Shown here: in pieces, positions 2,973 to 62,315 of the stretch
How positions within the stretch are numbered: the first letter of the stretch is position 1
Layout of the letters: each line of letters opens with the position of its first letter
Assembly (NCBI GenBank): GCA_030424975.1
Contig: JAUHVY010000001.1
Location: 183,093-247,092, forward strand
Origin: Alphaproteobacteria bacterium
Lineage (GTDB): Bacteria > Pseudomonadota > Alphaproteobacteria > Micavibrionales > Micavibrionaceae
Length of the DNA: 64,000 bases
Reading direction: 5' to 3'
Made by a program: the position numbers and the translations under genes
Notes under the pieces: model-generated
What the model was told of the DNA's origin: nothing
Seen by the model: only the letters and a program-made list of their open reading frames with translations
The model's database searches: none

Positions 2973-5900
2973 TTATTGACCGGTGGTTCCGTTACGCATT
3001 GGGTCTGCCAATTCTGCAACATTTCCGTCAACTGTGAAGTCAACCGTCACGCTTTGTACAACCTTGCCTTCTGCGCTGTTGAACAGAACATCCACTTCAC
3101 CTTTCAATTCCTCAGGCAAGTTACCGCCACGGCCGAGAATTGCACTACGCATATTGCTTGCACGGTCTTCAACGGCTTGATTGATGATGTTCGCTGCTTC
3201 GTCTGTAACTACAATGTCATTTGCACTGCGTGGCAATCCACCTGTTTGACTTTGAACGGTTGCAGATGTGATTGCACCTTTTTCAAAGATAACATGTGTG
3301 GCCGGATTACCGTCACGATCACGGATCGGCACTGCTAGTGTTGATGTATTGGCATCAGCGTCTTGGTTGCCGCCGCCTGAGCTATTTGCAGTATTGTTCG
3401 TTGCGCCCGGTACGTGGCTGCGCTGTGTTGCTGCACCATAAGTGTTTGATTGAACAAATGAGCTTCTGGTTGATGCACTTTTTGCCATGCCATCACCAAT
3501 AGCACCTGTTCTGTGTAACAAATATGCGCCGATCGCGAGCAATGCACCCCATTTTAGGGCAGGGGGCATTTCACCGCCAAAGCCGTATTTGTTGATCATG
3601 TTAATCATAACAAGACCACCAAAACCAAGTGCTGCGAATTCTACGCCGTTATAGAAATTTCGTTCGCCTTGTGTCTTCGCGCCAGCCTTTGTTTCTTGCC
3701 ACATTTGGCCCCATTCTTTAACCTTGTTGAAGGCTAAGCTGAGGTAGCCACCGGCAACGCTTGCGACGCCGCTTTCACCGCGACCGAAGATCTGATACGG
3801 AAGTCCGTTTTCACCACCGCCAATTGCTTTCAAAGCTTCATCAACTTTATGTGCTGTACCGAAACGATATTTCACATCTGCATTGTTGTTCATTAGCTCA
3901 GCATTTTCATCGCCTTGCGCTTTTAACTGATCAAAGATGCCTTGTGCATTTTTCATTTTCATCTCGATTTGAGATGTAATGTTGTTTAGCTGTGCCAACT
4001 TTTCTTGGCTTGCACCAAGATCCTGAGAAGCACTAAGAGCTTTGATTTCTGCTTCCAACGCCTTTGCTTGCTCAACCAATCCACCCGGCTTGTTCAAATC
4101 TTCCTGAACATCACGGATACCTTCAAGATGGTCAAATGCTTCTTGTTGGTTTGCCTTCGTATCAGCAATGATTTGGTCAAGGTTCTGCGCCTTTTGCAAT
4201 TCGTTCTGGTTGATCAGCTCCATTTGGAAATCTTCAAGAGATTTGACCTGTCCGGCAATAACCTCAAGGATTTCAGTTCCGCCAAGCTTGCGTGTATCCG
4301 CTGCGCCCGGGTTGGAAATCAATTTACCTGTAGACATCGTAAAGCTGTTCGCACGGCTTAATGAGCGTGCAGCTTCTGCTTGGTTTGCCTCGAGTTGAAC
4401 TTGCCATTCAGGCTTTGGTGGCTGCTGTGTTCCGGTTCCGGTTCCGGTTCCGGTTCCAGTTCCAGTTCCAGTTCCAGTTCCAGTTCCAGTTCCAGTTCCA
4501 GTTCCAGTGTTCTGTTGTGCACCACCACCTGTGTTCTGTTGTGCGCCACCACCTGTGTTTTGTTGTGCGCCACCACCTGTGTTTTGTTGTGTGCCACCAG
4601 GTGTGTTTTGTTGTGTGCCACCAGGTGTGTTCTGTTGTGTGCCGCCAGGTGTGTTCTGTTGTGTACCGCCAGGTGTGTTCTGTTGTGCACCACCGGGGGT
4701 GTTCTGCTGTGCGCCACCAGGTGTGTTCTGTTGTGTTGGCCCATTATTGGTGTTGGTCGAGGCATCTTCATCAGCAAAAGCCTCATCAATGCGCGTTTTT
4801 ACATATTGATCAAATGCCTCTTGCGTCCAGTCCATACCTTCGCCAATCATCAGCGGGCTACCATAACCTTCGCCTTGGTTCAAGCCTGCCATGCTTGTAC
4901 CTGCCCAAATCGGAACGCCGAGAGCATCATCTACAACAAAGTCAGTGGCACCGCCGATACCGCGCGCTGCTAACCACCAAGGTGTTGCTGCCGCTTTTGT
5001 ACCATCCCAAACGCCTTCCGCAATCCATGATGCGGGGCTTTCAGTCATCTCGTCACGGTTGTCGATAAGTGAATAAGTTAAGCCTGTTGCGCCGGCACCA
5101 CCAATAGCCCAACGCATTGGATGAACTTCTACGGGCCATGTTGTTTTAAGATTCCAGCCACCTGAGGCAATACGACCTGGAGCACGAATATACCAAGGCA
5201 AATTACTCTCAAAGTCTTCATTTTTTCCAAAGCCCCATTTCCAGCGCATACCATCTGGTTTTGAAATACCGTCCAATGTGGAGGCTGAGCGTTCAAATGT
5301 TTCCCCGCCTGTTACCCATGCGAACGGACGTCTTAAGAAATTGTTGGAAATATAATTTCCGGCAATGTTACGACCAGGCTTAGATAAACCGAATTTACGA
5401 AGGCTGAAGTCCCCCATATATGCAGTGCTAATGAGTTCAAACTTCGCAATGTCTGCTGCATATCTTAAGTTTGTAAAACGTGGACCAACTTTAACATTGT
5501 CATCATATTTATATGATGCTGCAGTGATTAGGTTTTCCCACTCTCTTTTTTCGAAGGGGGAAGAAGCACTCCTTGCTGCTGCACGCGCCTCTTTAATGAA
5601 ATCAGAAGGCAGGGTTTGAAGCGCATTTGGACCAGCTTCTAAGTTTAAGATTTTAAATGCGCGAGCCGCAATGTGTGATTGACCGGAGGCAACCATTTCT
5701 TCAACGTCACCCATAAAAAGCTTCAGTTCGTCCACGCTCCATTTTATGGCGGTGCCATTGTCTTTGGTTGGCAGTTCTCTCCAACGATTCATGATTCTGA
5801 ACATCGTTAGCTCAGAGTTGTTACTTCCATCATCAACTATAAGCGGGGAAGGTCTGTCATACTGATTGTAGTTGTAGGAATCCAGTTCCCATTCCAGTCT

Positions 5901-7439
5901 ACGAATTTCATGGCGTGGCGCTTTATCGCCTAACTGAATTGTACCGTCAGTATTTAACGCCAACTCATGATCACTATTTCTCTTCGCAACGCGGCCAGTT
6001 TGTCGCATAAATACATCATCACCAACTCTGTCAAGGCGGCTTGACATCATTGTATCAAGTGATGCAGCTATTTCGTCTGAAGATCTACCGGCATTAGTCA
6101 GGTCATCAATGGTTTGAAGATAGTTTTTTACGAAGCTGTTGTCTTCTGAACCAAGCTGCTTAACAGTGTTATCTAAGTCTTCGATGTAACGAAGAACGGT
6201 GTCTTTGTGTTCCTGCGTCCAACCGTTTTGGCTGCTGTATTTGCCAAGAGCTTCACGCGTCCTAGCTTCTTTACGCAAGGCATCAACATGCTCTCTCAGG
6301 TTGCTTATTGATGATTGATTATCTGCGTTATCTGTAAACTCTTTGAAACGTGCCTGAATAAGTTCTTTCGCTTTTTCGGCATCTACAACTTCACCGTCAA
6401 TTTTTGATCCGGATGCTAATGCATCAGTAATTTTTTGTAGATCGCCTTTTAGATCCATTGCAGCGTTACGTACGCCGGAAGATTCTAGTAAGTTGTCTGC
6501 ATGGTTAATCATGGGGCGCATGAAACGCTTTGCAACGCCAAGCTTTGCAAGGCCGCGAACAGGGCTGATACCGTCTTCGCCAAGGTTTCTGAGTGTCGCG
6601 CCAATACGAAAACGCATTAATGTACGTTCCCATGTTTCTCTGAACTTAGGAATTACATTTGATGCTTCAATCTCACCATCTGCGTTACGAGCTGCAGCAC
6701 CCAAACGTGAGTTGTTTGGAGGCGTAGGGCCGTTTGGCGTAGGGCCGTTATTTTGTGCTGCGTCATCAGCAGCATTAGTACTTGTGTCGCCGCCGTTACC
6801 ATCATTACCACCACCATTACCGTCACGGCCTGTGGCACCTTCATCCGCTGCGTTGTCTGCTGCATTTGCATTAGGTGCTGCGTTGTCAGCAGTATTTGCA
6901 TTTGGTGTTACATCGTATTGACGACTTGCACGTGCTTCTTCGCCTTCGATTAAGCGTTTATATACTTCAGAGAACTTGTTTTCTGCGTCTGCGCGGCTCA
7001 TGCCGTTTTCAGCCATGTATCGGCCGATACGCTCTTCACGTGAGGCTGCACGTTGTGCCATTCTTGTTTGAATGTCTGCAATTTCATTGGCGCTTAGGGA
7101 TGTGTTGTCACTAAGGTTTTTAACAATAGCATTAACATCAATACGACCCGCACCAAGCATTTGTGTATTGAAATCGTCCATAGTACGACTTAATGGAGCA
7201 AGCGCGTCCATACGACTTATGAACGAATCAGATTTCAGGAATGTTTCAACAGAGGATGCGACACGTCGGCCTGAATTTGGGTCGAGTATTTCATCACGCC
7301 ATTTCATAACGCTTTCTGAAATGTCGTCACCCTTACTAATGGCATCAAGAAGACCGCTACGTAGATGCTGTGGAAGCTGCGCTGCGTCGTCGAGGCCGCG
7401 TACCAGTAATTCGAATGCTGAAGCTTTAAGATTTGGCAT
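2973..7439 (-). CDS. Giant 1488-aa protein with octapeptide and Gly-Thr repeats, unknown function
   Basis: No signal peptide. Regions in order: helical 1-170; a low-complexity Asn/Ala/Asp/Gly linker 178-245; a long charged helical region 255-700; a Trp- and Gly-rich section 700-870 with hydrophobic patches; the QQNT(P/G)GG(A/T) octapeptide array 903-976; a Gly-Thr dipeptide run 977-1004; a probable coiled coil 1062-1175; two hydrophobic segments near 1265-1283 and 1293-1309; an Asn/Ser/Gly linker; and a beta-like tail 1365-1488. This looks like a modular structural, surface or effector-type protein anchored or inserted through its C-terminal third. It follows the 882-aa gene by 100 bp and shares a Trp-x-x-x-PMR plus Gly-rich element with it. 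No known family is recognised and no enzymatic motif is evident. Confidence 0.8.
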   Translation of the reverse strand: MPNLKASAFELLVRGLDDAAQLPQHLRSGLLDAISKGDDISESVMKWRDEILDPNSGRRVASSVETFLKSDSFISRMDALAPLSRTMDDFNTQMLGAGRIDVNAIVKNLSDNTSLSANEIADIQTRMAQRAASREERIGRYMAENGMSRADAENKFSEVYKRLIEGEEARASRQYDVTPNANTADNAAPNANAADNAADEGATGRDGNGGGNDGNGGDTSTNAADDAAQNNGPTPNGPTPPNNSRLGAAARNADGEIEASNVIPKFRETWERTLMRFRIGATLRNLGEDGISPVRGLAKLGVAKRFMRPMINHADNLLESSGVRNAAMDLKGDLQKITDALASGSKIDGEVVDAEKAKELIQARFKEFTDNADNQSSISNLREHVDALRKEARTREALGKYSSQNGWTQEHKDTVLRYIEDLDNTVKQLGSEDNSFVKNYLQTIDDLTNAGRSSDEIAASLDTMMSSRLDRVGDDVFMRQTGRVAKRNSDHELALNTDGTIQLGDKAPRHEIRRLEWELDSYNYNQYDRPSPLIVDDGSNNSELTMFRIMNRWRELPTKDNGTAIKWSVDELKLFMGDVEEMVASGQSHIAARAFKILNLEAGPNALQTLPSDFIKEARAAARSASSPFEKREWENLITAASYKYDDNVKVGPRFTNLRYAADIAKFELISTAYMGDFSLRKFGLSKPGRNIAGNYISNNFLRRPFAWVTGGETFERSASTLDGISKPDGMRWKWGFGKNEDFESNLPWYIRAPGRIASGGWNLKTTWPVEVHPMRWAIGGAGATGLTYSLIDNRDEMTESPASWIAEGVWDGTKAAATPWWLAARGIGGATDFVVDDALGVPIWAGTSMAGLNQGEGYGSPLMIGEGMDWTQEAFDQYVKTRIDEAFADEDASTNTNNGPTQQNTPGGAQQNTPGGAQQNTPGGTQQNTPGGTQQNTPGGTQQNTPGGTQQNTGGGAQQNTGGGAQQNTGGGAQQNTGTGTGTGTGTGTGTGTGTGTGTGTGTQQPPKPEWQVQLEANQAEAARSLSRANSFTMSTGKLISNPGAADTRKLGGTEILEVIAGQVKSLEDFQMELINQNELQKAQNLDQIIADTKANQQEAFDHLEGIRDVQEDLNKPGGLVEQAKALEAEIKALSASQDLGASQEKLAQLNNITSQIEMKMKNAQGIFDQLKAQGDENAELMNNNADVKYRFGTAHKVDEALKAIGGGENGLPYQIFGRGESGVASVAGGYLSLAFNKVKEWGQMWQETKAGAKTQGERNFYNGVEFAALGFGGLVMINMINKYGFGGEMPPALKWGALLAIGAYLLHRTGAIGDGMAKSASTRSSFVQSNTYGAATQRSHVPGATNNTANSSGGGNQDADANTSTLAVPIRDRDGNPATHVIFEKGAITSATVQSQTGGLPRSANDIVVTDEAANIINQAVEDRASNMRSAILGRGGNLPEELKGEVDVLFNSAEGKVVQSVTVDFTVDGNVAELADPMRNGTTGQ
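4429..4506. repeat. Hexanucleotide tandem repeat coding a Gly-Thr run
   Basis: Thirteen head-to-tail copies of GTTCC(A/G), the first four or so ending in G and the rest in A. On the coding (minus) strand they read Gly-Thr per unit, forming residues 977-1004 of the 1488-aa protein. Unit length is a multiple of three, so slippage would change repeat number without breaking the frame. Confidence 0.93.
4507..4733. repeat. 24-bp tandem repeat coding the QQNTPGGA/T octapeptide
   Basis: About nine and a half imperfect 24-bp units directly next to the hexamer array. On the minus strand the units translate as QQNTPGGA or QQNTPGGT (first six) and QQNTGGGA (last three), residues 903-976 of the giant protein. 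The variation between copies is mainly at third positions plus a Pro/Gly switch, suggesting expansion by unequal exchange under coding constraint. Confidence 0.92.
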
Positions 7440-7539: not shown

Positions 7540-10188
7540 TTATTGGTTTTTGATCGAGCTGTTTTCAATGGTATTGGCTACATCTTCCGGTACCTCAATT
7601 GTAAATACCGGTTGGTTTAGCGGAGATACCGTTCCGTTAGAGCGGTTATTGAATGTATTACTTGTATTTCCGCCATTTTCATTCGGCGCGGTATTGTTGC
7701 CGCCAGGAAATTCATTTTGAAGTGAGGAGGGGGCATTCCCGGTTGAGTCCAGTTCCTGCTCATATTGATCCATCAGGCTGTCGAAATCATCCTGATCAGT
7801 TCCTAATGTGCCTAAACTTTGCTCTACAAGAGATTGTGAGGATGTCATAATGGATTGACCGTTTTTGTAATCCATGTAGACGCCTAGCCCCATACCGCCT
7901 GCTGCTGCGGTGGCCTCAACCAGAGGGCTACGCATCGGATCAGCAAAGCGCCAGCTTTTATATGTACCAAGCTCGAAGCCACGACGCATACGTGCGCCTG
8001 TGTTGGCGAAGCCTGATAGATCTTCCGTTGTTTTTGTTGCTGTTTCTGCAACCTCGCGTGTGATCCGTGTTAAGCCGTTTTCAGCGTTACGGGTAAGCAT
8101 ATTTACCTGTCTGATTTCATCATCAAGCTTTGCAGATGTGCGCGCGACAGTTCTTTCCGCCCGAGCAATAGCAGACGCATTTGCGCCTGATTCTTGTAGC
8201 TCAGCGAGCTTTTTCGTCGCATCACGGAAGTCATCAGCCGATTTTGCTAAATATTCCATCAAATCGTTTTGAGTAAGTTTTTCAACGCCGTTTGAGAAGC
8301 TGCGAAGGCCCGGAATTCTCTCGGCAGCGGCGTCGCCTAATGTCCCTGAGCGGCGTGTCCCTTGTGCCACTTCGTCAGCTTTGCCGGCTGCTTTTTGCGC
8401 TTTGGTCGCATTTTGAAGATTAGTAGAGGCTTGTGCGACTTCATCTGTTAAACGCGGCAGATCATCAGCTTTTCGTGCCATGTCCGCAATCTCATCCACA
8501 TGCTTCCCTGTGAGTTCTAATATTTCATCTGCATTTTTGCCAGTGATGCGCATAATGTCATCTGCGTTTTTACCGGCTAATGATACTGCGTTATCAGCAT
8601 TTCGGCCTAATATAGACGCCACATTATCTAATTCACGACTTGCGCGGCGCGCAGTTCTCAGGGCGGAAGATGCTTCTTCCAAAGGCTTTACAAAACGCTC
8701 CAGTTTGCTTGTATAGCGCATTGCGTCCATAACCATGTCAGCACGACGAATGGTGTTAACGGTTCTGAGGCCTGTGCCACCCCATTTTGCCGCCCAAGCA
8801 CCGGCGGCTGTACCGCCTGAGCCTGCAATCGTTAGGGCTGCAACCGGAATTTCCAAAACTGCCTGAGAGCCATAGAGCATGATGCGCTCATATGTCGCCT
8901 TGTCATTGGCTTTCATTTCGGAATCAAGCGTAACGTTGCTTGTCGTTTTTCCACTGGAATCTGTCACGCTCAGGTTACTACTGCTAATACCCAGATCAAC
9001 TCTGTTATTCTCACCGTCATAGTAATAAAGCCCGCCGTCACCGATTTTAACGTCATGCTCTTCACCATTTTCGTCGGTGAATTTAAGCTCGTTATCCTCA
9101 AGTGTCAGTGTCACCAGTAACCCGTCAGGCTTTTCGCCTGTGATCGTAAGTTCGCCACTTTCGTCAATCGCAACATCGTTACCGCTTGCGTCTGTGGTTT
9201 TCAGCATAACATCAAGATATTCAGGCTCAATAGGGTCAACAAACTGTGTCGCGTCATGCGAAACTGTGGACCAATAGAAAAAACCGTTCTCACCCAAAAG
9301 GTTTTGTTTTTGGCTGTCTGCATCAATTGTAATGTCATTGATGACTGTGCCGTCTGCTGTTGTGGTTGAGAATGAGCCGTTTTTAATATCAAGCTCAATG
9401 TGCTCGTAACTCATCGGGTCAACGGTGTAGAATTTACCGTCTTCTGACCATACATTCGTTTTATTGCCTTCTGCATCAATCAGATATAGCTGCTCATCAA
9501 TAAGGTGTAATTCAATTTGCTGTGCTTCGGCACCTTCGCCGATAGTGGCTGTTAATGTAAGGTCATCACCCTCCGGGACAGCAACTTTCTCACCATTCGG
9601 ACCTGTTGTGTATACCTCAACATCAGCGCCAATGTTATAAACACTGTTTTTAGTAAGGTTTACAATGCTTCGGCCTGCATCGCCAACCATAACGACAGTA
9701 CCTACAACGGCGTCCGTCACGCCCTGTGCGGCCAAAGACCATGCACGGCCCGGATCATCCCAGCATGCCCATTTTGCAAACTTCCCGGTCTCTACAGCGG
9801 CCGTACCCAAAGCATCGCGTGTACTACGTAATCTGCTTGTTATGCCGTTTTCTTCACCAGTTACTGCTTCCGCGATTACACCGGGAACGGCTAAAGCGTA
9901 AGAACCGATATATTTCCCTGTTTCCTCAACAACGGGTGCTACATTTTCCATTGTCCAATCTGCGGCGGTGCTTATGGCTTCCCCCGTTGCGGTGGCGGCA
10001 CTTTTTATTGCGTCGCCTGCAGCATCAACAGTGGCTTCTTCTTCCCATCCAAGATCAAATGTTTTGGATACAACGCCATCGGCGAAGTCTTTTGCGGACC
10101 CGGCTGCTTCTGCAACGCTGGACGCAGCGCTAGACACGCCATCGGCGATGTTCCCTGCTGCTTTTTTTGTCCAATCCCAAAGTCCCAT
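7540..10188 (-). CDS. Large 882-aa modular protein, first gene of the unknown block
   Basis: Starts MGLWDWTKKAAGNIADG without a signal peptide. Residues 1-185 are Ala-rich amphipathic helix. Residues 186-425 are an acidic beta-rich region with repeated short strands and Asp/Gly turns (for example ITIDADSQKQ, LTLEDNELKFTDENGEEH), resembling bacterial adhesin or Ig-like modules in style only. A hydrophobic Gly/Ala segment lies near 444-466. Residues 528-571 contain four 11-residue helical repeats of the type GKNADEILELT. A second Gly-rich hydrophobic patch follows PMR at 751-753. The last 65 residues are Asn/Gly/Ser/Thr rich with a short beta tail. AAGGTA lies about 10 bases before the ATG. No family recognised; probably works with the 1488-aa protein encoded next to it. 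Confidence 0.8.
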   Translation of the reverse strand: MGLWDWTKKAAGNIADGVSSAASSVAEAAGSAKDFADGVVSKTFDLGWEEEATVDAAGDAIKSAATATGEAISTAADWTMENVAPVVEETGKYIGSYALAVPGVIAEAVTGEENGITSRLRSTRDALGTAAVETGKFAKWACWDDPGRAWSLAAQGVTDAVVGTVVMVGDAGRSIVNLTKNSVYNIGADVEVYTTGPNGEKVAVPEGDDLTLTATIGEGAEAQQIELHLIDEQLYLIDAEGNKTNVWSEDGKFYTVDPMSYEHIELDIKNGSFSTTTADGTVINDITIDADSQKQNLLGENGFFYWSTVSHDATQFVDPIEPEYLDVMLKTTDASGNDVAIDESGELTITGEKPDGLLVTLTLEDNELKFTDENGEEHDVKIGDGGLYYYDGENNRVDLGISSSNLSVTDSSGKTTSNVTLDSEMKANDKATYERIMLYGSQAVLEIPVAALTIAGSGGTAAGAWAAKWGGTGLRTVNTIRRADMVMDAMRYTSKLERFVKPLEEASSALRTARRASRELDNVASILGRNADNAVSLAGKNADDIMRITGKNADEILELTGKHVDEIADMARKADDLPRLTDEVAQASTNLQNATKAQKAAGKADEVAQGTRRSGTLGDAAAERIPGLRSFSNGVEKLTQNDLMEYLAKSADDFRDATKKLAELQESGANASAIARAERTVARTSAKLDDEIRQVNMLTRNAENGLTRITREVAETATKTTEDLSGFANTGARMRRGFELGTYKSWRFADPMRSPLVEATAAAGGMGLGVYMDYKNGQSIMTSSQSLVEQSLGTLGTDQDDFDSLMDQYEQELDSTGNAPSSLQNEFPGGNNTAPNENGGNTSNTFNNRSNGTVSPLNQPVFTIEVPEDVANTIENSSIKNQ
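8476..8607. repeat. Four 11-residue (33-bp) helical repeats inside the 882-aa protein
   Basis: Residues 528-538, 539-549, 550-560 and 561-571 of the 882-aa protein read GRNADNAVSLA, GKNADDIMRIT, GKNADEILELT and GKHVDEIADMA. The 11-residue period with hydrophobic positions spaced for one helix face is a hendecad pattern, as in some coiled coils and amphipathic lipid-binding helices. The DNA copies are diverged, so it is a protein-level repeat rather than a recent duplication. Confidence 0.85.
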
Positions 10189-12177: not shown

Positions 12178-13017
12178 CTATGCTGCCACGATGTGCTGGC
12201 TTTTTGATTTTGCATAAAGGCCGCGACAATTCGGCACATTTTGGAATGTATTAGTGATACCCAAAACCGTTTCCGCGCCACCTAAGAAATAAAAACCATC
12301 ATCTTCCAGAAGATTAGCAGATCGCTCCATAACATCTTTTTTCGTTGGCTGATCAAAATAAATAAGAACATTACGGCAGAAGATAATGTCATATTTACCA
12401 AGCATCACCATATTATCGAGCAAGTTAAAGTACTTGAACGTAATCATGTCTTTTATGTCTTGGTTGATGCCCCATTTATTATCAGGCATCTGTTTGAAAT
12501 ATTTCATCAGATAGGTAATAGGGAGGCCACGCTGAATCTCAAATTGTGTGTAAAGCCCTTCTTTTGCTTGCTCTAAAATTTCATGAGAAATGTCGGTCGC
12601 CGTAATTTGAAACTTCCATCCGGGAAGATGCATAGCAGCCTCTTCTTTTAAGAGCATCGCGATAGAATAGGGCTCTTGTCCGCTGGATGCGGCCGCACAC
12701 CAAATACGAAGTGTCTTGTTCGGGCGCGGGTTCTGCTTAAAGTATGGTATGACCTTTGATTTCAGGTTTTCAAACGGGGTGTTATCCCGAAAGAAAGATG
12801 TTTCATTTGTTGTCATTGCCTCGACAATATCATTCACAAGCTCTTTCGGTGGGACACCGCGCAGAATCTTTGTTAAGGCGCCAATATTCTCATATCCCCA
12901 TTTTTTTGAGACGGGGTTTAGGCGTGATTCAATAAGATATGCTTTATCTTGCGTGAGGGTCAGTCCTGATTTTGCTTTCAGAAGGTCTCTGTATATGTCG
13001 AAATCTGCAATATTCAT
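12178..13017 (-). CDS. cheR: Chemotaxis protein methyltransferase CheR
   Basis: Transfers methyl groups from S-adenosylmethionine to glutamates on chemoreceptors, setting adaptation together with CheB. 279 residues. The N-terminal all-helical domain contains AMTTNETSFFRDNTPF; the SAM-binding motif is LRIWCAAASSGQEPYSIAML, slightly changed from the usual CSTGEEPYS; further on are ATDISHEILEQAKEG and the IIFCRNVLIYFD motif. AGGAC lies 4-5 bases upstream of the ATG. It is the last gene of the chpT-cheA-cheW-cheY-cheB-cheR run, 21 bp after cheB. Confidence 0.96.
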   Translation of the reverse strand: MNIADFDIYRDLLKAKSGLTLTQDKAYLIESRLNPVSKKWGYENIGALTKILRGVPPKELVNDIVEAMTTNETSFFRDNTPFENLKSKVIPYFKQNPRPNKTLRIWCAAASSGQEPYSIAMLLKEEAAMHLPGWKFQITATDISHEILEQAKEGLYTQFEIQRGLPITYLMKYFKQMPDNKWGINQDIKDMITFKYFNLLDNMVMLGKYDIIFCRNVLIYFDQPTKKDVMERSANLLEDDGFYFLGGAETVLGITNTFQNVPNCRGLYAKSKSQHIVAA

Positions 13018-13038
13018 TTTAGTCCTACTTATGTATTC

Positions 13039-14157
13039 TTATTTTAAACATGCTCTTTTTAACCAAGGCCCGATTTCTGATAACGGTAAGACCGCACTAC
13101 AGATACCGTCTGATGCAACAGCGCCGGGCATGCCCCAAACAACGCTTGTCTTCTCATCTTGGGCAATTAATCGGCCTTTTTCTTTTACGAGGACGCGCGC
13201 GCCCTCTAAACCATCCTGCCCCATTCCTGTTAAGATCGTGCATAGTACACGGGATCCGTAAATTGAAACAAGGGATCGTAACATAGGATCGACTGCCGGT
13301 TTACAAAAGTTTTCCGCCGGGCCGTCATTTAATTTTATTATAAGATCGGCTCCGCTTTTTTCAAAGAGCATGTGCTTCCCACCCGGTGCAACATAAACTT
13401 TTCCTGCCTCTACGCGCATACCATCGGCACCTTCAAACGCGGTTAAGCCTGTTTGAAGGTTAATATGGCTGGCAAGGATTTTCGTAAATGTTCCGGGCAT
13501 GTGTTGCGTAATCACAACGGGAATATCTAGTTGCCCAAGATCTTTGAGAACTTGGAACAGGGCTTGTGGCCCTCCGGTTGAGCTACCGATGGCAAGAACT
13601 GAGGGCTTTCCCTTATATGCCATTGGATCGTTTAATAAACGAATATTTTTCTCTCCCGCGAATGCAGGTGGAGCTGTTTTACCGGGTTTTGCTTGTTGAC
13701 TGGTCGCTTGTGGTGCGCTCATCGCTGTTTGTGAAGCTGGCTGCTTTCCGCCCAGGGTTCTGACTAAGTTGATCAAGGTGGTATGAAAAAGAGAGTTTGG
13801 ACCACTTTCTTGTGCACTGCTGGGTTTTACCAAGCATTCAACTGCACCCAATGTCATGGCTTTCAATGTGGTGTCAGCACCTTTTGCGGTTAAGCTTGAG
13901 CACATGACGACTTTTGTTTTTGGTGATGTTTTAAGAATTTCCGGAAGAGCTGTTAAACCATCCATTACAGGCATTTCAACATCAAGAATCATAACATCCG
14001 GCTGTTTTGTGCGCGCTGTTGATATCGCCATCTCGCCGTTTGCGACAGATGCCACGATCTCGATCTCCGGATCAGTTTTAATAATTCGCGTGAGCGCCCC
14101 ACGGATGACACTGGAATCATCAACAAGAGCTACTCTGATTTTCTCATTACCTTGCAT
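13039..14157 (-). CDS. cheB: Chemotaxis response regulator protein-glutamate methylesterase CheB
   Basis: Removes methyl esters from (and can deamidate) chemoreceptors when phosphorylated by CheA. Receiver domain at residues 1-125 with the acidic pair VDD near 12-14 and phospho-acceptor D59 in MILDVEMPVMDG; a Gln/Ala/Pro-rich linker around 140-170; then the methylesterase domain with nucleophile Ser in AIGSSTGGPQAL, His in TQHMPGTF and Asp in LTGMGQDGLEGA. 372 residues is normal. It lies between cheY and cheR in the operon. Confidence 0.97.
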   Translation of the reverse strand: MQGNEKIRVALVDDSSVIRGALTRIIKTDPEIEIVASVANGEMAISTARTKQPDVMILDVEMPVMDGLTALPEILKTSPKTKVVMCSSLTAKGADTTLKAMTLGAVECLVKPSSAQESGPNSLFHTTLINLVRTLGGKQPASQTAMSAPQATSQQAKPGKTAPPAFAGEKNIRLLNDPMAYKGKPSVLAIGSSTGGPQALFQVLKDLGQLDIPVVITQHMPGTFTKILASHINLQTGLTAFEGADGMRVEAGKVYVAPGGKHMLFEKSGADLIIKLNDGPAENFCKPAVDPMLRSLVSIYGSRVLCTILTGMGQDGLEGARVLVKEKGRLIAQDEKTSVVWGMPGAVASDGICSAVLPLSEIGPWLKRACLK

Positions 14158-14208
14158 GATATAATTTATTTTCCGTTACCTGAAAAATCCAGGAACTAGT
14201 CATTGAGT

Positions 14209-14586
14209 TTATTGTTGTTGTTCAAGTAAACCAACCTGAATAAATTTAGTTTCAATGATTTCACTATCGAACGGCTTCATAATATATTCATTTGCACCGG
14301 CTTGCATAGCTCTTTGAATGTGCGAGATGTCATTTTCTGTTGTGCAGAAGACAACTTTAGGATGATTTCCGTTTTCCATCTGTCTAAGTTTTTCAAGAAA
14401 CTCAATACCGCTCATGATCGGCATATTCCAATCGAGTATAATCGCGTCAGGCATTGATTCTAAACATGCCTCATAAGCTTTCTGCCCATCCTCAGCTTCG
14501 CGAATTCCAAACCCAAGATCATGGGCTATTCTACTGGCAACCTTCCTAACGACACGGCTGTCATCGACAATCAAACAAGACTTCAT
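14209..14586 (-). CDS. cheY: Single-domain response regulator CheY
   Basis: Stand-alone receiver of 125 residues that carries phosphate from CheA to the flagellar switch or acts as a phosphate sink. Visible: acidic pair VDDS at 7-10, phospho-acceptor D52 in IILDWNMPIMSG, conserved Thr in VFCTTEND and Lys in YIMKPFD. AGGGGATAGT precedes the ATG, a good ribosome site. It lies between cheW (83 bp) and cheB (51 bp) in the operon, so a chemotaxis role is likely rather than general signalling. Confidence 0.93.
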   Translation of the reverse strand: MKSCLIVDDSRVVRKVASRIAHDLGFGIREAEDGQKAYEACLESMPDAIILDWNMPIMSGIEFLEKLRQMENGNHPKVVFCTTENDISHIQRAMQAGANEYIMKPFDSEIIETKFIQVGLLEQQQ

Positions 14587-14669
14587 ACTATCCCCTAAAT
14601 TATTGCATAAAAAATGCTCAAAATCATACTACACCATAAATGTAAAAAATTTATTTAGTTTTGTCTTTA

Positions 14670-15137
14670 TTAAATTTTTTCTCCGCCGACGTTATCAAGT
14701 AGTTTTGATACGTCCATTACTACTAAAAGCTCATCTTTTAGTTGATATATGCCTGTGGATACATCGCGCCACGTTTGATCCAAAGTGCTTGGGTTTTTTT
14801 CAAAGCTGGCATCATTAAAGTTCAGAACATCACCAACACGATCAATAATTAAACTAAATAACTCTTCTTTATGCTCTACGACAACACTCATACTTGATTT
14901 TGGTTTGTTGTCATCTTTAATGTTCAGGCGTTTTCTAACGTCAATAGCGGTAACGATTCGCCCGCGTAAATTGAGTGACCCTGCAATTTCAGGGGGGGCG
15001 AGAGGAATTCTCGTTACTTTCTGCTCTCGCAAGACATCTTGAACCTGTAATACAGGAATGCCGAATTTTTGATCGGCGATCATAACGGTTAGATAATCTC
15101 TGGAGGAGCTGTTGGTTTTAATGTCTTCTGCGTTCAT
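14670..15137 (-). CDS. cheW: Chemotaxis coupling protein CheW
   Basis: Scaffold protein that links CheA to chemoreceptors. 155 residues of a single CheW-like SH3-type domain: YLTVMIADQKFGIPVLQVQD, REQKVTRIPLAPPEIAGSLNLRGRIVTAIDVRKRL and VVVEHKEELFSLIIDRVGDVL are typical. GGAGG lies 10 bases upstream of the start. It directly follows cheA (20 bp gap). CheA itself carries two further CheW-like regions, so this operon encodes three. Confidence 0.95.
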   Translation of the reverse strand: MNAEDIKTNSSSRDYLTVMIADQKFGIPVLQVQDVLREQKVTRIPLAPPEIAGSLNLRGRIVTAIDVRKRLNIKDDNKPKSSMSVVVEHKEELFSLIIDRVGDVLNFNDASFEKNPSTLDQTWRDVSTGIYQLKDELLVVMDVSKLLDNVGGEKI

Positions 15138-15157
15138 AAGATTTAATCCTCCGTCCT

Positions 15158-17989
15158 CTAATTACTAAGGGTTTGCGCAAGTGTGTTTAGCAGCGTATCT
15201 TTGTCAAACTTTGCGACATATTGCGTGAAACCGACAGACCGCCCACGCTCAATATCTTGCGGCGTGGCATGAGAGGATAAGGCCACGATTGGGGTATTTG
15301 CCCATCGGCTTTCCTGGCTTTTTACGTGTTGTGCGAATTGAAATCCATCCATTTCCGGCATTTCAATATCACTAATGATAACGTCAAAATGGGCGCCTTT
15401 TTCACGGAGTTCAAGTGCATCCGCAGGGCGTTCCAAAGAGGTGACTTCATATCCTGCGACACTTAGTAACGGCGTTAACATATTGCGGAAAAACGGACTG
15501 TCATCAACAAGCAAAAGCTTTTTCTTTGTTTTACCACTATTTACCCCGGAGTCAGAGTTAAACGGGGTGTCATCATGGTCTTTAAACCACTCACGGTTAA
15601 TACCATTAAGGAAGTGCGCAATATCAACCACATCTGTGGCGTGGTTGTTTATAATGGCACTGCCGAGTAAGCCCGGTTGTGTGGAGCTAAGCTTTACATC
15701 GATGCGTTCTTCAATGATGTCGACGATTTCATCAACAATAATACCCATTGATTGCACTTTGTCTGCGAAAACTAAAACAGGTTTTTCACCTTCGTGCGAT
15801 ACTTGAACTGATGAGTTAAAGGGAATAAGTGGCATTAATGTTCCGCGGTATTGCACCATCATTTGCCCGCTGGAATATTCAACGTCTTCCATTTTTACGT
15901 TTTCTAAACGCGCTACCAATGAAAGCGGGACAGCCTTTGGCGTGTTGTCGCCGACATTAAATAGTAAGAGAGAGGTTTTCTTGTCTGAGTCGGCGTGAAG
16001 AACAGCGTCTGTTTGAGCATCTTCTTGAAGGTCGGTATCAATCGAGCCTGATGCTCCGGCAATACCGTTCGGGTCGAGAATCATGATGACGCTACCATCG
16101 CCGAGAATTGTGTTTCCGGAGAAAATCTTAAGGTTCTTTAGTATGCCGGCAACAGGTTTAACAACGATCTCTTCTGTGTCGAAGACGCGGTCGACGATAA
16201 TGCCAAATTCATAACCGCCTACCTGAGCGATAACAATATACAGATTGCGAGGCGTTGTTTTGTCATCTTCTGCGCCATCACCGACGCTTACACTTTCTTT
16301 TTCTTCACTATCTTTTGTGACGGGGCCTTTCTTTTTTGCGTCTTCTGCAAATGCCTGAAGGTGCACGCTCGGCCTTAAGTTGAGGACTTCGCTCAGAGAT
16401 ACCAGAGGTAATAGGCGATCACGTAAGCGGAATACGGGAGAGCCTTTGATATATTCAATGCGGTTTTCACTGTGTTCCGAAACCATCACAAGCTCGCGCA
16501 CGGCAAGTTGTGGAATTGCAAATTTTTCACCTGCGGTTTCAACAATAAGGGCTGAAACAATAGCAAGTGTAAGCGGGATTTTAATCGTAAAGGTGGAGCC
16601 TTTGCCCTCAACCGACTTTAATTCAATCGAACCGCCGATCTTTTCAATGTTTGTGCGGACAACATCCATACTAACGCCACGTCCGGAAACGGATGTAACG
16701 GCTTCTGCTGTTGAGAAGCCGGCCTTGAAGATGAATTGCTGAATTTGCTGCGTTGACATTTCCTCAAGCTCTTCTTCGGTGGCAAGGCCATTAGAAATGA
16801 TTTTATTTTTGATTTTTTCTTCTGATAACCCCTTACCGTCATCCGATATTTTGATAATGATATGACCGCCTTCATGGAACGCTTCGAGAACGATCTTCCC
16901 TGTTTCATTTTTGCCTGCGGCAAGGCGTTCTGCGGGTTTTTCAATGCCGTGATCACCCGAGTTACGCACCATATGCGTTAGTGGATCTTTGATCATCTCA
17001 AGAACCTGACGGTCAAGCTCGGTTTCCTGTCCGCGCATCACAAGTTCGATTTTTTTATTCAATTCAAGGGCAAGGTCTCGAATAATACGCGGCAGTTTTG
17101 ACCAAGCGTTGCCGATTGGTTGCATGCGTGTTTTCATTACACCTTCTTGCAAATCGGAAACAACATGATTCAGGCGTTGCAACGGCGCGGAGAACATAGT
17201 CTCTCCCTCTGCGCGCGCAATTTGTAATAACTGGTTACGCGTTAAGACCATTTCACTGACCATGGTCATCAGGTCTTCAAGAACGTCAACATTCACGCGA
17301 AGCGTTTGTGTTGATTTTCCTTTTGATTCCGTTGATTTTTCTTCAGGCTCTTCGTCTTTCTTTTTGGGTGTAGGCGGTGGCGGAGGAGGTGGTGCAGCCG
17401 CAGCAGGTTCTTCCTCTTTTACATCCGCAGGGTTAACAATGCCATCCATTCCCGGTGCAGCGGCGAAAGCCGCCTCTAATTCTTCCAATGAAACTTCACC
17501 CGGCGCGAGGTCTTTTTGTACAATGTTAACAACTATGGCTTCTTCTTCTTTTTCTTGTGGCTCTTCTGCCACGGCGTCGGCAGCGGCGGGGGCGCTTTCA
17601 CCTGAAATATCTTTCCCTTCATACGCGGCGTCCAGCTTCGCGATTAAGGCACTATCATCGCCATCAGGTTCAGCGCCTGTTTCTTCGATTTCACCGACGA
17701 TATATTTAATTTGGTCAATTGATTCAAAAATAAGGGTCACATATCCGGGGGTAACCTCCAGGTCGCCATCACGGAAACGACCCAAAACATTTTCTGCGTG
17801 GTGGGCAACTTTTTCAAGGCGAGGCAGGCTAAGGAAACCACAGGTCCCTTTGATCGTATGCATAAGACGGAAGATTTTACCAAGTAAATCCTTGTCATTC
17901 GGGTTCTGTTCAAGATTTACAAGGTCAAGATCCAGCTCTTCTAAGCTTTCGTTTGTTTCAGTCAAAAACTCAACGATCAAGTCATCCAT
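15158..17989 (-). CDS. cheA: Hybrid chemotaxis histidine kinase CheA with second CheW-like domain and receiver
   Basis: 943 residues from the ATG at 17989, chosen because GAGGA lies 6 bases upstream; the longer open frame adds 18 unlikely residues. Order: Hpt domain with phosphorylated H44 in RLMHTIKGTCGFL; a low-complexity acidic/Pro linker around 150-230; dimerisation helices; the HATPase with N box THMVRNSGDHGIE and glycine boxes SDDGKGL and GRGVSMDVV; a P5 CheW-like regulatory domain; a second, diverged CheW-like domain at roughly residues 670-800; and a C-terminal receiver (LLLVDDSPFF, IISDIEMPEMDG). The receiver could act as an internal phosphate sink. The N box has Gly where many CheAs have Ile or Val. 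Autophosphorylates and phosphorylates CheY and CheB. Confidence 0.96.
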   Translation of the reverse strand: MDDLIVEFLTETNESLEELDLDLVNLEQNPNDKDLLGKIFRLMHTIKGTCGFLSLPRLEKVAHHAENVLGRFRDGDLEVTPGYVTLIFESIDQIKYIVGEIEETGAEPDGDDSALIAKLDAAYEGKDISGESAPAAADAVAEEPQEKEEEAIVVNIVQKDLAPGEVSLEELEAAFAAAPGMDGIVNPADVKEEEPAAAAPPPPPPPTPKKKDEEPEEKSTESKGKSTQTLRVNVDVLEDLMTMVSEMVLTRNQLLQIARAEGETMFSAPLQRLNHVVSDLQEGVMKTRMQPIGNAWSKLPRIIRDLALELNKKIELVMRGQETELDRQVLEMIKDPLTHMVRNSGDHGIEKPAERLAAGKNETGKIVLEAFHEGGHIIIKISDDGKGLSEEKIKNKIISNGLATEEELEEMSTQQIQQFIFKAGFSTAEAVTSVSGRGVSMDVVRTNIEKIGGSIELKSVEGKGSTFTIKIPLTLAIVSALIVETAGEKFAIPQLAVRELVMVSEHSENRIEYIKGSPVFRLRDRLLPLVSLSEVLNLRPSVHLQAFAEDAKKKGPVTKDSEEKESVSVGDGAEDDKTTPRNLYIVIAQVGGYEFGIIVDRVFDTEEIVVKPVAGILKNLKIFSGNTILGDGSVIMILDPNGIAGASGSIDTDLQEDAQTDAVLHADSDKKTSLLLFNVGDNTPKAVPLSLVARLENVKMEDVEYSSGQMMVQYRGTLMPLIPFNSSVQVSHEGEKPVLVFADKVQSMGIIVDEIVDIIEERIDVKLSSTQPGLLGSAIINNHATDVVDIAHFLNGINREWFKDHDDTPFNSDSGVNSGKTKKKLLLVDDSPFFRNMLTPLLSVAGYEVTSLERPADALELREKGAHFDVIISDIEMPEMDGFQFAQHVKSQESRWANTPIVALSSHATPQDIERGRSVGFTQYVAKFDKDTLLNTLAQTLSN

Positions 17990-18176
17990 GTTCATTCCTC
18001 GTACGGATTGTGTGTTGCATACAATCTTGTGCATTCTGCACAAAATAAAATTTTTCGCATGTTCATAAAATGCAGCAAAAAGTTTAAATAAACGTAAGTA
18101 ACGCAGTAAAAGACGCAGAAAAAGGAAGGATTAGCTTTATCAGAATACTATAATCCATTGATATGAAAAGTATCTC

Positions 18177-59818: not shown

Positions 59819-61156
59819 ATGGATCGTCTGTCCAAACAAATTGAAATTGCGATTAGAGATGTTCCCACCCATGAAACATTTGGGCGGGTGACGAAAATCC
59901 TTGGCCTTTTGGTAGAGATTTCCGGCTTCGGAGAGGGGTTAACGATTGGTGCAATGGTGCATTTAAAACCGTCTGTCGATATTGATATTCCATGTGAAGT
60001 GATCGGGTTTCGTGACGGGCAGGCATTGCTTATGCCTTTTGGCACGTTGGAAGGCGTTGGTTTAGGTTGCAAAGCGGTGATCCAGCAATCAGCACCATCT
60101 ATTATGCCGTCTGATCGCTGGCTTGGGCGTGTTATTAATGGCATGGCCGAGCCGATTGATGGAAAAGGGGCTTTGCCGCATGGGGCGTATGCCGTGCCTT
60201 TGCGCAACAAACCACCACCGCCGCATTCACGTCAACGCCTTGGCGGCCAGCTTGATTTAGGGGTGCGCGCCGTGAATACGTTTTTGGCCACATGTCAGGG
60301 GCAACGTATGGGGATTTTCTCAGGATCGGGCGTCGGTAAATCGGTGCTGCTCTCTATGATGGCACGCTATACGGCGGCGGATGTATCCATTATCGGCCTG
60401 GTGGGGGAGCGTGGACGAGAGGTGCAGGAATTTCTGGAAGATGATCTTGGGGAAGATGGTTTAGCGCGCTCTGTTGTGGTTGTCGCAACGGGTGATGAGC
60501 CGGCCCTTATGCGCAGACAGGCCGCATATACGACGATGGCGCTGGCCGAATATTTCCGCGATCAGGGCAAACAGGTTTTGTGTCTGATTGATTCTTTGAC
60601 GCGATTTGCCATGGCACAGCGTGAGATTGGTTTGAGCGCGGGGGAGCCCCCGACGTCAAAAGGGTATCCGCCAACGACCTTTGGTGAATTAGCCAGATTG
60701 TTAGAACGCGCAGGGCCGGGCGCGCCCGATCAGGGGGCTATTACGGGTTTGTTTTCAGTTCTTGTTGAGGGGGATGACCATAACGAGCCTGTATCTGATG
60801 CCGTGCGCGGTATTGTCGACGGGCATATTGTTATGGAGCGTGCGATTGCCGACCGTGGGCGTTATCCTGCGATCAATGTTTTGAAATCTGTTTCACGTTC
60901 TTTGCCAGGGGCTATAACGCCGCAGCAAAATGAAATTTTGCGTTATGCCAAGAAAATCATTACAACATATGAAGATATGGCCGAGCTTATCAGGCTGGGG
61001 GCCTATCGTAAGGGAAGTGACCCTGCCGTTGATGAGGCGATTATTTTGTATCCTGATTTGGAGCGTTTTTTAACCCAGAACAAGGATGAGCGCACATCAA
61101 TCGAAGACGGGTTCAGGATAATGGCTGATATTTTACAAATTGATTATGTGCCGTAG
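59819..61156 (+). CDS. fliI: Flagellum-specific ATP synthase FliI
   Basis: Hexameric ATPase of the flagellar type III export machine. 445 residues, F1-beta-like. Walker A FSGSGVGKSVLLSMMAR, IIGLVGERGREVQEFL, LIDSLTRFAMAQREIGLSAGEPP and GHIVMERAIADRGRYPAINVLKSVSRSLP are conserved. Plus strand, divergent from ctrA by 216 bp and followed by the CheD-like gene and fliJ. Confidence 0.97.
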   Translation: MDRLSKQIEIAIRDVPTHETFGRVTKILGLLVEISGFGEGLTIGAMVHLKPSVDIDIPCEVIGFRDGQALLMPFGTLEGVGLGCKAVIQQSAPSIMPSDRWLGRVINGMAEPIDGKGALPHGAYAVPLRNKPPPPHSRQRLGGQLDLGVRAVNTFLATCQGQRMGIFSGSGVGKSVLLSMMARYTAADVSIIGLVGERGREVQEFLEDDLGEDGLARSVVVVATGDEPALMRRQAAYTTMALAEYFRDQGKQVLCLIDSLTRFAMAQREIGLSAGEPPTSKGYPPTTFGELARLLERAGPGAPDQGAITGLFSVLVEGDDHNEPVSDAVRGIVDGHIVMERAIADRGRYPAINVLKSVSRSLPGAITPQQNEILRYAKKIITTYEDMAELIRLGAYRKGSDPAVDEAIILYPDLERFLTQNKDERTSIEDGFRIMADILQIDYVP

Positions 61157-61173: not shown

Positions 61174-61881
61174 ATGAGCGTAAATTTAAGAGATTTCAAA
61201 GATAACGAGAAACGCATGGCCGCACTTGAGGCATTGCCAAAAGCAGATTATGCACCGAATGTGGTTGAACGTTATGATGCAAAAGATATCGTCGGCGTTG
61301 ATATGTATGAGGCAGGCGTCGTAGATAATCGCGGTGATTTTTCTGTTATCGGCACAACGGCCTTGGCAACATGTATTGGTGTTGCCGTTCATAATCCGAA
61401 GACGAAAGCCACAGGTGTTTGTCATGTTGTCGGTGATGGCGCGCGTTCTTACCCGTCACCTGATAGTGAGGAAGCTTTGGTCGCAATGTTAAAAAATGCA
61501 TCAGGCCCAGACTATGAACCGTTGGAGGCACGACTTGTCGGTGCGCATATGGGCGGAGAGTTAAATAATGATTTTCTAAACCGTATTTATGATCTTCTGG
61601 CGGAATTTGATACAACGGTGTTAAGTGCCGATGTGAAAGGTAAGCCAGGCCCAAAAGACTTTGCTGTTGATGCGGCAAATTGGGAACAGGGGTTAATTCG
61701 CGGTAGTGTTGATATGGTTGATTTCAGAGCAGACCCGAATACGGGTGGCTTTGCCGAAATGATTAAGCAGAAAATGGAATCCGTTGATTTGACAAATATG
61801 CGATATTTTGAAACCGGTGCAAATAATCTGGTGTATTCCGTATCGCCACAATCCACGCCTGCGCCGGGTTACGAATTATAG
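61174..61881 (+). CDS. CheD-like deamidase-fold protein between fliI and fliJ
   Basis: 235 residues from the ATG at 61174 (GGGTG 6 bases upstream). A CheD-type pattern is seen from residue 50: Thr61, Cys67 and His84 in GTTALATCIGVAVHNPKTKATGVCHVV keep the spacing of the Thr-Cys-His triad of CheD (in Thermotoga 21/27/44, from memory), and LEARLVGAHMGG, FDTTVLSADVKGKPGPKDFAVDAANWEQGLIRGS cover the later CheD elements. CheD deamidates chemoreceptor glutamines. The N-terminal 50 residues and the C-terminal 55 are extra. Position in a flagellar export operon, not in the che operon, is unusual. Confidence 0.7.
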   Translation: MSVNLRDFKDNEKRMAALEALPKADYAPNVVERYDAKDIVGVDMYEAGVVDNRGDFSVIGTTALATCIGVAVHNPKTKATGVCHVVGDGARSYPSPDSEEALVAMLKNASGPDYEPLEARLVGAHMGGELNNDFLNRIYDLLAEFDTTVLSADVKGKPGPKDFAVDAANWEQGLIRGSVDMVDFRADPNTGGFAEMIKQKMESVDLTNMRYFETGANNLVYSVSPQSTPAPGYEL

Positions 61882-61889
61882 ATAATATC

Positions 61890-62315
61890 ATGGCCGAGCT
61901 GGAATCACTCATCAAAGTGCGCAGGCACGATATAGAACAAAAACAAAAGGCGCTCGCGGCACTCTATAAACAATCGCAAGATTTAAAAGATATGCGCGAT
62001 GAAATTGAAACACAGCTTGCGATCGAAACGGAAAAATCTAAGGAAATGGGGGCGGAAATGCTCTCTTATTTCGGGCCGTATGCGAAAGCCTCTCGTAAAA
62101 AGATAGAGCATATAGATTATCAGCGTCAACAACTGGAAAATCATATTCGCATGGCACAAGATGCGATGCGTGATGCCTTTGCCGAAATGAAAAAAATTGA
62201 AATTATTGATGAGCGCCGTAAAGAAGAAGAGCTTGCCGCATTAGAGAAAAAACTCTCTGCTGAGCTTGATGAAATTGCAATTAACGGGTTTCGCCGTAAT
62301 ACCGAAGAGCCGTAG
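61890..62315 (+). CDS. fliJ: FliJ-like flagellar export chaperone
   Basis: 141 residues, nearly all predicted coiled coil (Lys/Glu/Gln rich heptads), length and position (after fliI, with one gene between) fitting FliJ, the coiled-coil protein in the FliI ring that promotes gating of the export apparatus. There is no sequence motif to prove it; the coiled coil plus operon are the evidence. Ends 1 base before the convergent FliK-like gene. Confidence 0.75.
   Translation: MAELESLIKVRRHDIEQKQKALAALYKQSQDLKDMRDEIETQLAIETEKSKEMGAEMLSYFGPYAKASRKKIEHIDYQRQQLENHIRMAQDAMRDAFAEMKKIEIIDERRKEEELAALEKKLSAELDEIAINGFRRNTEEP

Follow-up and report, generated by a model that had tools for sequence, protein, structure and literature searches.

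What does the gene between the flagellar export genes fliI and fliJ of this genome encode, and does its position reveal what the product acts on? A sequence-only reading had described the product, here called X, as a CheD-like protein with an intact catalytic triad and had proposed a flagellar export or motor protein, rather than chemoreceptors, as its substrate. In the window (the whole analysed stretch of 64,000 nucleotides) the X open reading frame is intact, with an ATG and an alternative GTG start (61165), and its placement between fliI and fliJ was borne out (Table 1). The FliI profile match exceeds its cut-off, and as judged by sequence the identity of fliI is certain. The fliJ product scores below the cut-offs of TIGR02473 (33 bits versus 50.45) and PF02050 (28.1 versus 28.4), but its position, length, and N-terminal motif are those expected of FliJ. 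All three genes lie on the plus strand, and strand and spacing (17 bp between fliI and the ATG of X, 8 bp between X and fliJ) suggest that X is read together with its two neighbours. A promoter and terminator scan found no excess over shuffled sequences. The G+C content of X equals that of the window (0.455 in both), and thus gives no sign of foreign origin. Elsewhere in the window, two long open reading frames on the minus strand (2973-7439, 1488 aa; 7540-10188, 882 aa) had no Pfam match at 1e-4.

Table 1 Positions in the window of X, its predicted triad codons, its neighbours, and the chemotaxis genes
Feature	Position	Strand	Basis and remarks
fliI, flagellar export ATPase	59819..61156	+	TIGR03498 FliI_clade3, 632 bits (cut-off 587); upstream of X
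X, NTAN1/CheD-type cysteine deamidase (predicted), 235 aa	61174..61881	+	open reading frame, AlphaFold2 model, structure matches
Thr61 codon of X	61354..61356	+	predicted triad residue; corresponds to Ser69 of NTAN1 and Thr21 of CheD
Cys67 codon of X	61372..61374	+	predicted nucleophile; in 5/8 copies
His84 codon of X	61423..61425	+	predicted base; in 8/8 copies
fliJ, flagellar export protein	61890..62315	+	profile matches under cut-off; downstream of X
chemotaxis cluster	12178..18043	-	CheR 12178-13017, CheB 13039-14157, CheW 14670-15137, CheA 15158-18043; Pfam

Counted from the ATG, residues 61, 67, and 84 of X are Thr, Cys, and His. The spacing T-x5-C-x16-H has four matches among the 226 open reading frames of the window, X and CheB among them, and two in a non-overlapping set of 59 versus 0.25 in shuffles; by itself it is thus poor evidence and not significant. 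The relationship of X to CheD and NTAN1 is real as judged by homology and predicted fold, not by triad spacing. In the alignments the three residues are in register with Ser69, Cys75, and His92 of NTAN1 and with Thr21, Cys27, and His44 of CheD, which are the reported triads of both proteins (PMC7022378), and this bears out the triad first read from the letters. Activity of NTAN1 is reported to be abolished in C75A and H92A, about fivefold lower in S69A, and also abolished by mutations of Thr73, Thr74, Thr255, and Glu260 (PMC7022378). X has Thr66 at the position of Thr74, which binds Asn in NTAN1, and Ala65 at the position of Thr73 in all five Cys-bearing copies; its loop TTALATC thus resembles a mixture of the CheD loop (T-x-x-L-G-S-C) and that of NTAN1. 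In NTAN1 the C-terminal Thr255 and Glu260 cover the active site; X is about 70 residues shorter than NTAN1, and the last 12 residues of X have a pLDDT <50. Six CheD-type proteins share invariant GSC and NHF residues, and X has ATC and CHV at these places.

X was found in six of 143 genomes, this one included, all in a single family, which appears to be that of Micavibrio; NCBI taxonomy places Micavibrio in Bdellovibrionota. Three belong to one genus (G000, the genome studied here, G003, and G005) and three to another (g6; G016, G053, and G071); X was not found in G062 of the same family. In an order-wide profile search at E 0.01 ten of 142 genomes had matches and the six X genomes ranked first. 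The other four comprised three matches inside larger proteins and, in G069, a 140-aa open reading frame (L094 2509-2931, E 0.0066) that lacks the triad Cys and lies beside one of these larger, NTAN1-like proteins. A scan with a second profile (A2) returned four loci, in G003, G005, G053, and G016. Class-wide, profile A1 matched three of 385 genomes, namely this one and two weakly (8.9e-4 and 9.2e-4). Inspected by eye, neither weak match was retained as a distant orthologue: that in G224 falls in a gene of CheD type flanked by a CheR-like and a CheB-like gene, and that in G378 is a short stretch over an aminotransferase-like open reading frame, probably matched by chance. No convincing X was thus found outside the family among these 385 genomes, of which two, both in X's own family, matched PF14736.

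G016 and G053 carry tandem pairs of X, in which the first copies keep Thr, Cys, and His and the second copies have Ser or Gly in place of Cys and keep His. Only a Cys-less copy was seen in G071, where the contig that carries fliI ends 113 bp beyond it, so the assembly may lack a first copy; an open reading frame of 241-254 aa without a Pfam match over cut-off (L089 5424-6188) lies directly upstream of the Cys-less copy, at the contig end. Retention of Cys and His in orthologues, which the CheD-like assignment implied, therefore held for the first copies (all three triad residues in 5/5) and failed for the Cys in the three other copies (Cys in 5/8 and His in 8/8 of all copies), and part of the X family would thus work without catalysis. 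The G003–G005 pair has a dN/dS of 0.14, and three Cys-less pairs have rough values of 0.21-0.28 at a dS of 1.3-1.6; the majority of the remaining pairs are at or near saturation. Cys-bearing and Cys-less copies thus both look constrained at the sequence level, and the predicted structure of the Cys-less copy still has the fold of X (pLDDT 85; Z 14.5 to NTAN1 and 12.2 to CheD).

The sole Pfam match of X is N_Asn_amidohyd (NTAN1, PF14736) at 19.6 bits, below the cut-off of 24, and Pfam CheD (PF03975) did not match X at E 10, within HMMER's filters, or any other protein of the genome at E 0.001. The orthologues in G016 (36.1 bits) and G053 (28.9) pass the PF14736 cut-off and that in G003 (18.0) falls under it; genome searches with PF14736 at E 0.001 had no match in G003 and G005. 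The best NCBIfam match is XopAK (NF041406; E 5.9e-6, 25.9 bits versus a cut-off of 150), covering residues 32-84, followed further down by CheD (0.015), and XopAK is likewise best for four of the five other X-family proteins scanned (16-28 bits versus 150). Against the sequences of the PDB, a profile of eight X proteins favoured Thermotoga maritima CheD (E 7.5e-4) over NTAN1 (E 0.95), and the G016 orthologue searched as a single sequence matched human NTAN1 at E 2.1e-4. In profile–profile comparisons, the five Cys-bearing X proteins matched the NTAN1-like paralogues of the family at 97.7% (E 1.4e-12) and CheD-type CheD at 84% (E 7.6e-6).

The AlphaFold2 model of X (pLDDT 83, pTM 0.85) was built from an alignment of seven sequences, with five models ranging from 64.7 to 83.0 pLDDT and three of them at about 65-67. 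Foldseek ranked NTAN1 (1.8e-8) before CheD (3.3e-6). The model aligns with human NTAN1 (6a0e_A) over 187 residues spanning positions 3-229 (Z 15.6, rmsd 3.4) and with CheD (2f9z_C) over 135 residues spanning 33-183 (Z 12.8, rmsd 3.1); the next matches are YlmD/YfiH (Z about 8) and CNF1 (about 5). Both comparisons with CheD, by profile and by predicted structure, support a related fold, and the label CheD-like stands insofar as X has a predicted CheD-superfamily fold with an intact triad, but in fold and in Pfam family X is nearer to NTAN1. The terminal regions that had been called extra are so with respect to CheD only; since the NTAN1 alignment covers residues 3-229, they are at least partly NTAN1-like. 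On model and sequence evidence, the architecture of X is probably closer to NTAN1 than to CheD.

X thus shares with NTAN1 (PF14736, 6a0e) the best fold match, Cys and His in register, an aligned N-terminal region before the core, and a Thr directly before the Cys. It differs by a low identity (16%), by its shorter chain, by a triad Thr where NTAN1 has Ser, by Ala in place of the essential Thr73, and in that no N-degron transferase was found in its genome. With CheD (PF03975, 2f9z) it shares the core fold, the Thr-Cys-His spacing, and an L-x-[ST]-C loop, but it has no CheD-model match and no GSC or NHF signature, lies outside the che cluster, and has additional N- and C-terminal regions. XopAK (NF041406), a putative Xanthomonas type III effector, resembles X as its best NCBIfam match, far under the cut-off, and is listed in one source as not confirmed as an effector in Xanthomonas (PMC3071791). 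The larger NTAN1-like proteins of the same family (301-521 aa; L108 952-2457, which is near 896.8 kb on C2 of the present genome, L112, L113, and L090-L094) keep Thr, Cys, and His in 8/8 cases and are the paralogues matched at 97.7%, but most have long N-terminal (partly TPR-like) and long C-terminal regions, and no adjoining flagellar gene was noticed by eye among those whose surroundings were inspected. The one in the present genome adjoins a gene resembling an efflux-pump gene. Another family related to CheD, with proteins of about 200-220 aa (L052, L055-L057, L059-L066, L068, L070, and L071) has Gly for the catalytic Cys in all 15 aligned members and has lost the His in 12 of them; by eye, its genes adjoin nucleotide-sugar (GDP-fucose type) synthesis-like genes at the six loci inspected, and it looks like a CheD pseudoenzyme recruited elsewhere.

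The arrangement fliI-X-fliJ recurs in other genomes, namely in G003 and G005 and, with a second X copy, in G016 and G053. No description of it was found in the open-licence literature (titles and beginnings of abstracts, among the matches listed). The comparison covered 98 fliI loci: 79 from the 83 family genomes that have FliI, and 19 from the 43 such genomes outside the family. None of the 19 outside the family has an open reading frame of >=90 aa between fliI and fliJ, whereas the family loci comprise 58 that likewise have none of this length, 17 with at least one of >=90 aa, and four in which fliJ was not seen, so that 17 of the 75 family genomes with both genes seen have intervening genes. 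X occupies five of these 17 junctions. Grouped by eye, the genes in the remaining 12 fall into at least nine kinds, including a DUF4886 gene (G004 and G007), an acetyltransferase gene (G011), a zinc-ribbon protein gene (G049), and membrane-protein-like ones; ten junction proteins from nine genomes were scanned against Pfam, and three kinds (DUF4886, acetyltransferase, and zinc-ribbon) exceeded the cut-off. Within X's own genus the junction is either empty or contains X, the acetyltransferase, or a gene of the DUF4886 type. The fliI-fliJ junction is insertion-prone in this family, which makes the position of X weak evidence and weakens guilt by association; chance may in part explain why X sits among flagellar genes. 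Three changes are needed to place X on a FliI tree of 77 rows, from which G053 was left out as its fliI is incomplete, corresponding to two gains or to fewer gains with losses. An opposite-strand open reading frame lies between fliI and X in G016 and G053 and between X and fliJ in G003, so co-transcription of X with fliI and fliJ is not conserved. The opposite-strand protein of G053 (L004 888-1400) and G016 (L017 4647-5189) has 170-180 aa and, by eye, combines a signal peptide with a repetitive, charged body.

Deamidation by X of a flagellar export or motor protein such as FliJ, which would set export or the switch from swimming to attached cells, accords with the position of X between fliI and fliJ in two lineages and with a Gln in the FliJ EQKQK motif of all six X genomes compared with 28 of 69 others (four of the 79 loci, without a recognised FliJ motif, left out), many relatives having Glu or Asp there. 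The same Gln is, however, present in all 27 non-X genomes with a recognised FliJ in the clade of the FliI tree to which both X lineages belong; it therefore provides no X-specific link, and we rejected it as a target signature. X was moreover not found in 120 of the 126 FliI-bearing genomes, and 12 other family genomes carry unrelated genes at the junction, so the substrate first proposed from position is at best partly supported, and we regard it as unlikely. A more specific version, in which X and its Cys-less twin in Micavibrio-type predators edit a flagellar export component at the transition from swimming to attachment, is very doubtful; if true, side-chain deamidation would control the flagellar export ATPase complex. 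X might instead be the functional CheD of this genome, deamidating methylation-site Gln of chemoreceptors from an incidental flagellar location. The genome encodes four MCPs, and CheA, CheW, CheB, and CheR lie in the window with no CheD-model match to accompany them; X has the CheD-type core fold and an active-site loop (T-x-x-L-A-T-C) resembling that of CheD. The neighbourhood nonetheless gave no reason to name X CheD, the che cluster being without X and the genome without a CheD-model match. We read the consensus methylation sites of 30 of 70 MCP matches (two of them without a site or open reading frame) and of the four MCPs of this genome. By strict consensus most sites in the X genomes are Glu-Glu. 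Gln occurs at some sites in the X genomes G003 and G005 as well as in G042, G136, and G127, which have CheD-type CheD. In three of the four own MCPs a Gln adjoins the Glu pair at the C-terminal-side site, where a register one residue on would read Glu-Gln, but every consensus site in the four is readable as Glu-Glu and requires no deamidation. Glu-Glu also prevails in genomes with CheD-type CheD, so this comparison discriminates little. As the invariant GSC and NHF are absent from X and two genomes of the same genus carry X together with a separate CheD homologue that lacks the Cys, we consider the chemoreceptor role distinctly improbable.

The remaining alternatives concern chemistry and location. 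With NTAN1 ranking first by fold and alone in Pfam, and with Thr66 at the place of the Asn-binding Thr74, X could be a genuine N-terminal Asn amidohydrolase that supplies an N-degron pathway, but the essential Thr73 (PMC7022378) is Ala65 in all Cys-bearing copies and X is about 70 residues shorter than NTAN1. The leucyl/arginyl transferase (Bpt/ATE, PF04377) that would read the Asp product was found in none of ten genomes, with a positive Caulobacter control; the Ala and the missing transferase together make a full NTAN1 role doubtful, and we rate it very unlikely. X might also be non-catalytic in practice, a CheD-fold binding protein like CheD of Bacillus subtilis, which is reported to act in chemotaxis mainly by binding (PMC3513319). 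The constraint on the Cys-less copies and their retained predicted fold agree with this, but the intact triads of all five first copies do not, and it is decidedly improbable for X itself. Least probable of all is an effector role, in which X would leave the cell through the flagellar type III machinery or by another route and deamidate a protein of the prey. The appeal of this reading lies in XopAK as best NCBIfam match, in a family that seems to include the predator Micavibrio, and in the CNF1 and BLF1 toxins, which belong to the same fold class at lower Z; yet the XopAK match is far under its cut-off, and the least saturated X pair shows constraint, not diversification. NTAN1 is an intracellular protein, and the N-terminal region of X aligns with it.

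With moderate confidence, we interpret X as a compact cysteine deamidase of the NTAN1/CheD type that acts on a cytosolic protein and is probably made with the flagellum in this organism. The gene, its homology, predicted fold, conserved triad, and signs of purifying selection are what the analysis shows; catalysis, joint transcription with fliI and fliJ, and the role of the twin are inferences. On this view X is a compact cysteine amidohydrolase of the NTAN1/CheD branch. Thr61 would orient His84, which would deprotonate Cys67; the Cys would then attack an Asn or Gln side-chain amide in a cytosolic protein, and the reaction would free ammonia and leave Asp or Glu. In genus g6, a Cys-less copy of the same predicted fold beside X in two of three genomes presumably is a binding or regulatory partner. 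In its own genome X is probably transcribed with fliI and fliJ. In Micavibrio aeruginosavorus ARL-13, flagellar and chemotaxis genes are reported to be highly expressed in the attack phase and off in attachment (PMC3189940), and in a Micavibrio-type predator X would accordingly be made in the swimming phase. The insertion-prone junction means that this reading of X as a deamidase carries no commitment to a flagellar substrate. Against it stand the sub-cut-off NTAN1 scores of X and its G003 orthologue, the preference of the eight-protein profile for CheD, the three copies of eight without the Cys, the co-transcription that is not conserved, and a model derived from seven sequences.

NTAN1 is known as an enzyme of the eukaryotic N-degron pathway. 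X, found to date only in the apparent family of Micavibrio, represents a small bacterial NTAN1-like group with an intact triad, an inactive twin that has been retained, and no transferase found, which suggests a different role for this fold in bacteria, and the group partly closes the gap between CheD and NTAN1. For the Micavibrio-type family, the insertion-prone fliI-fliJ junction calls for caution against inferring function from flagellar neighbours.
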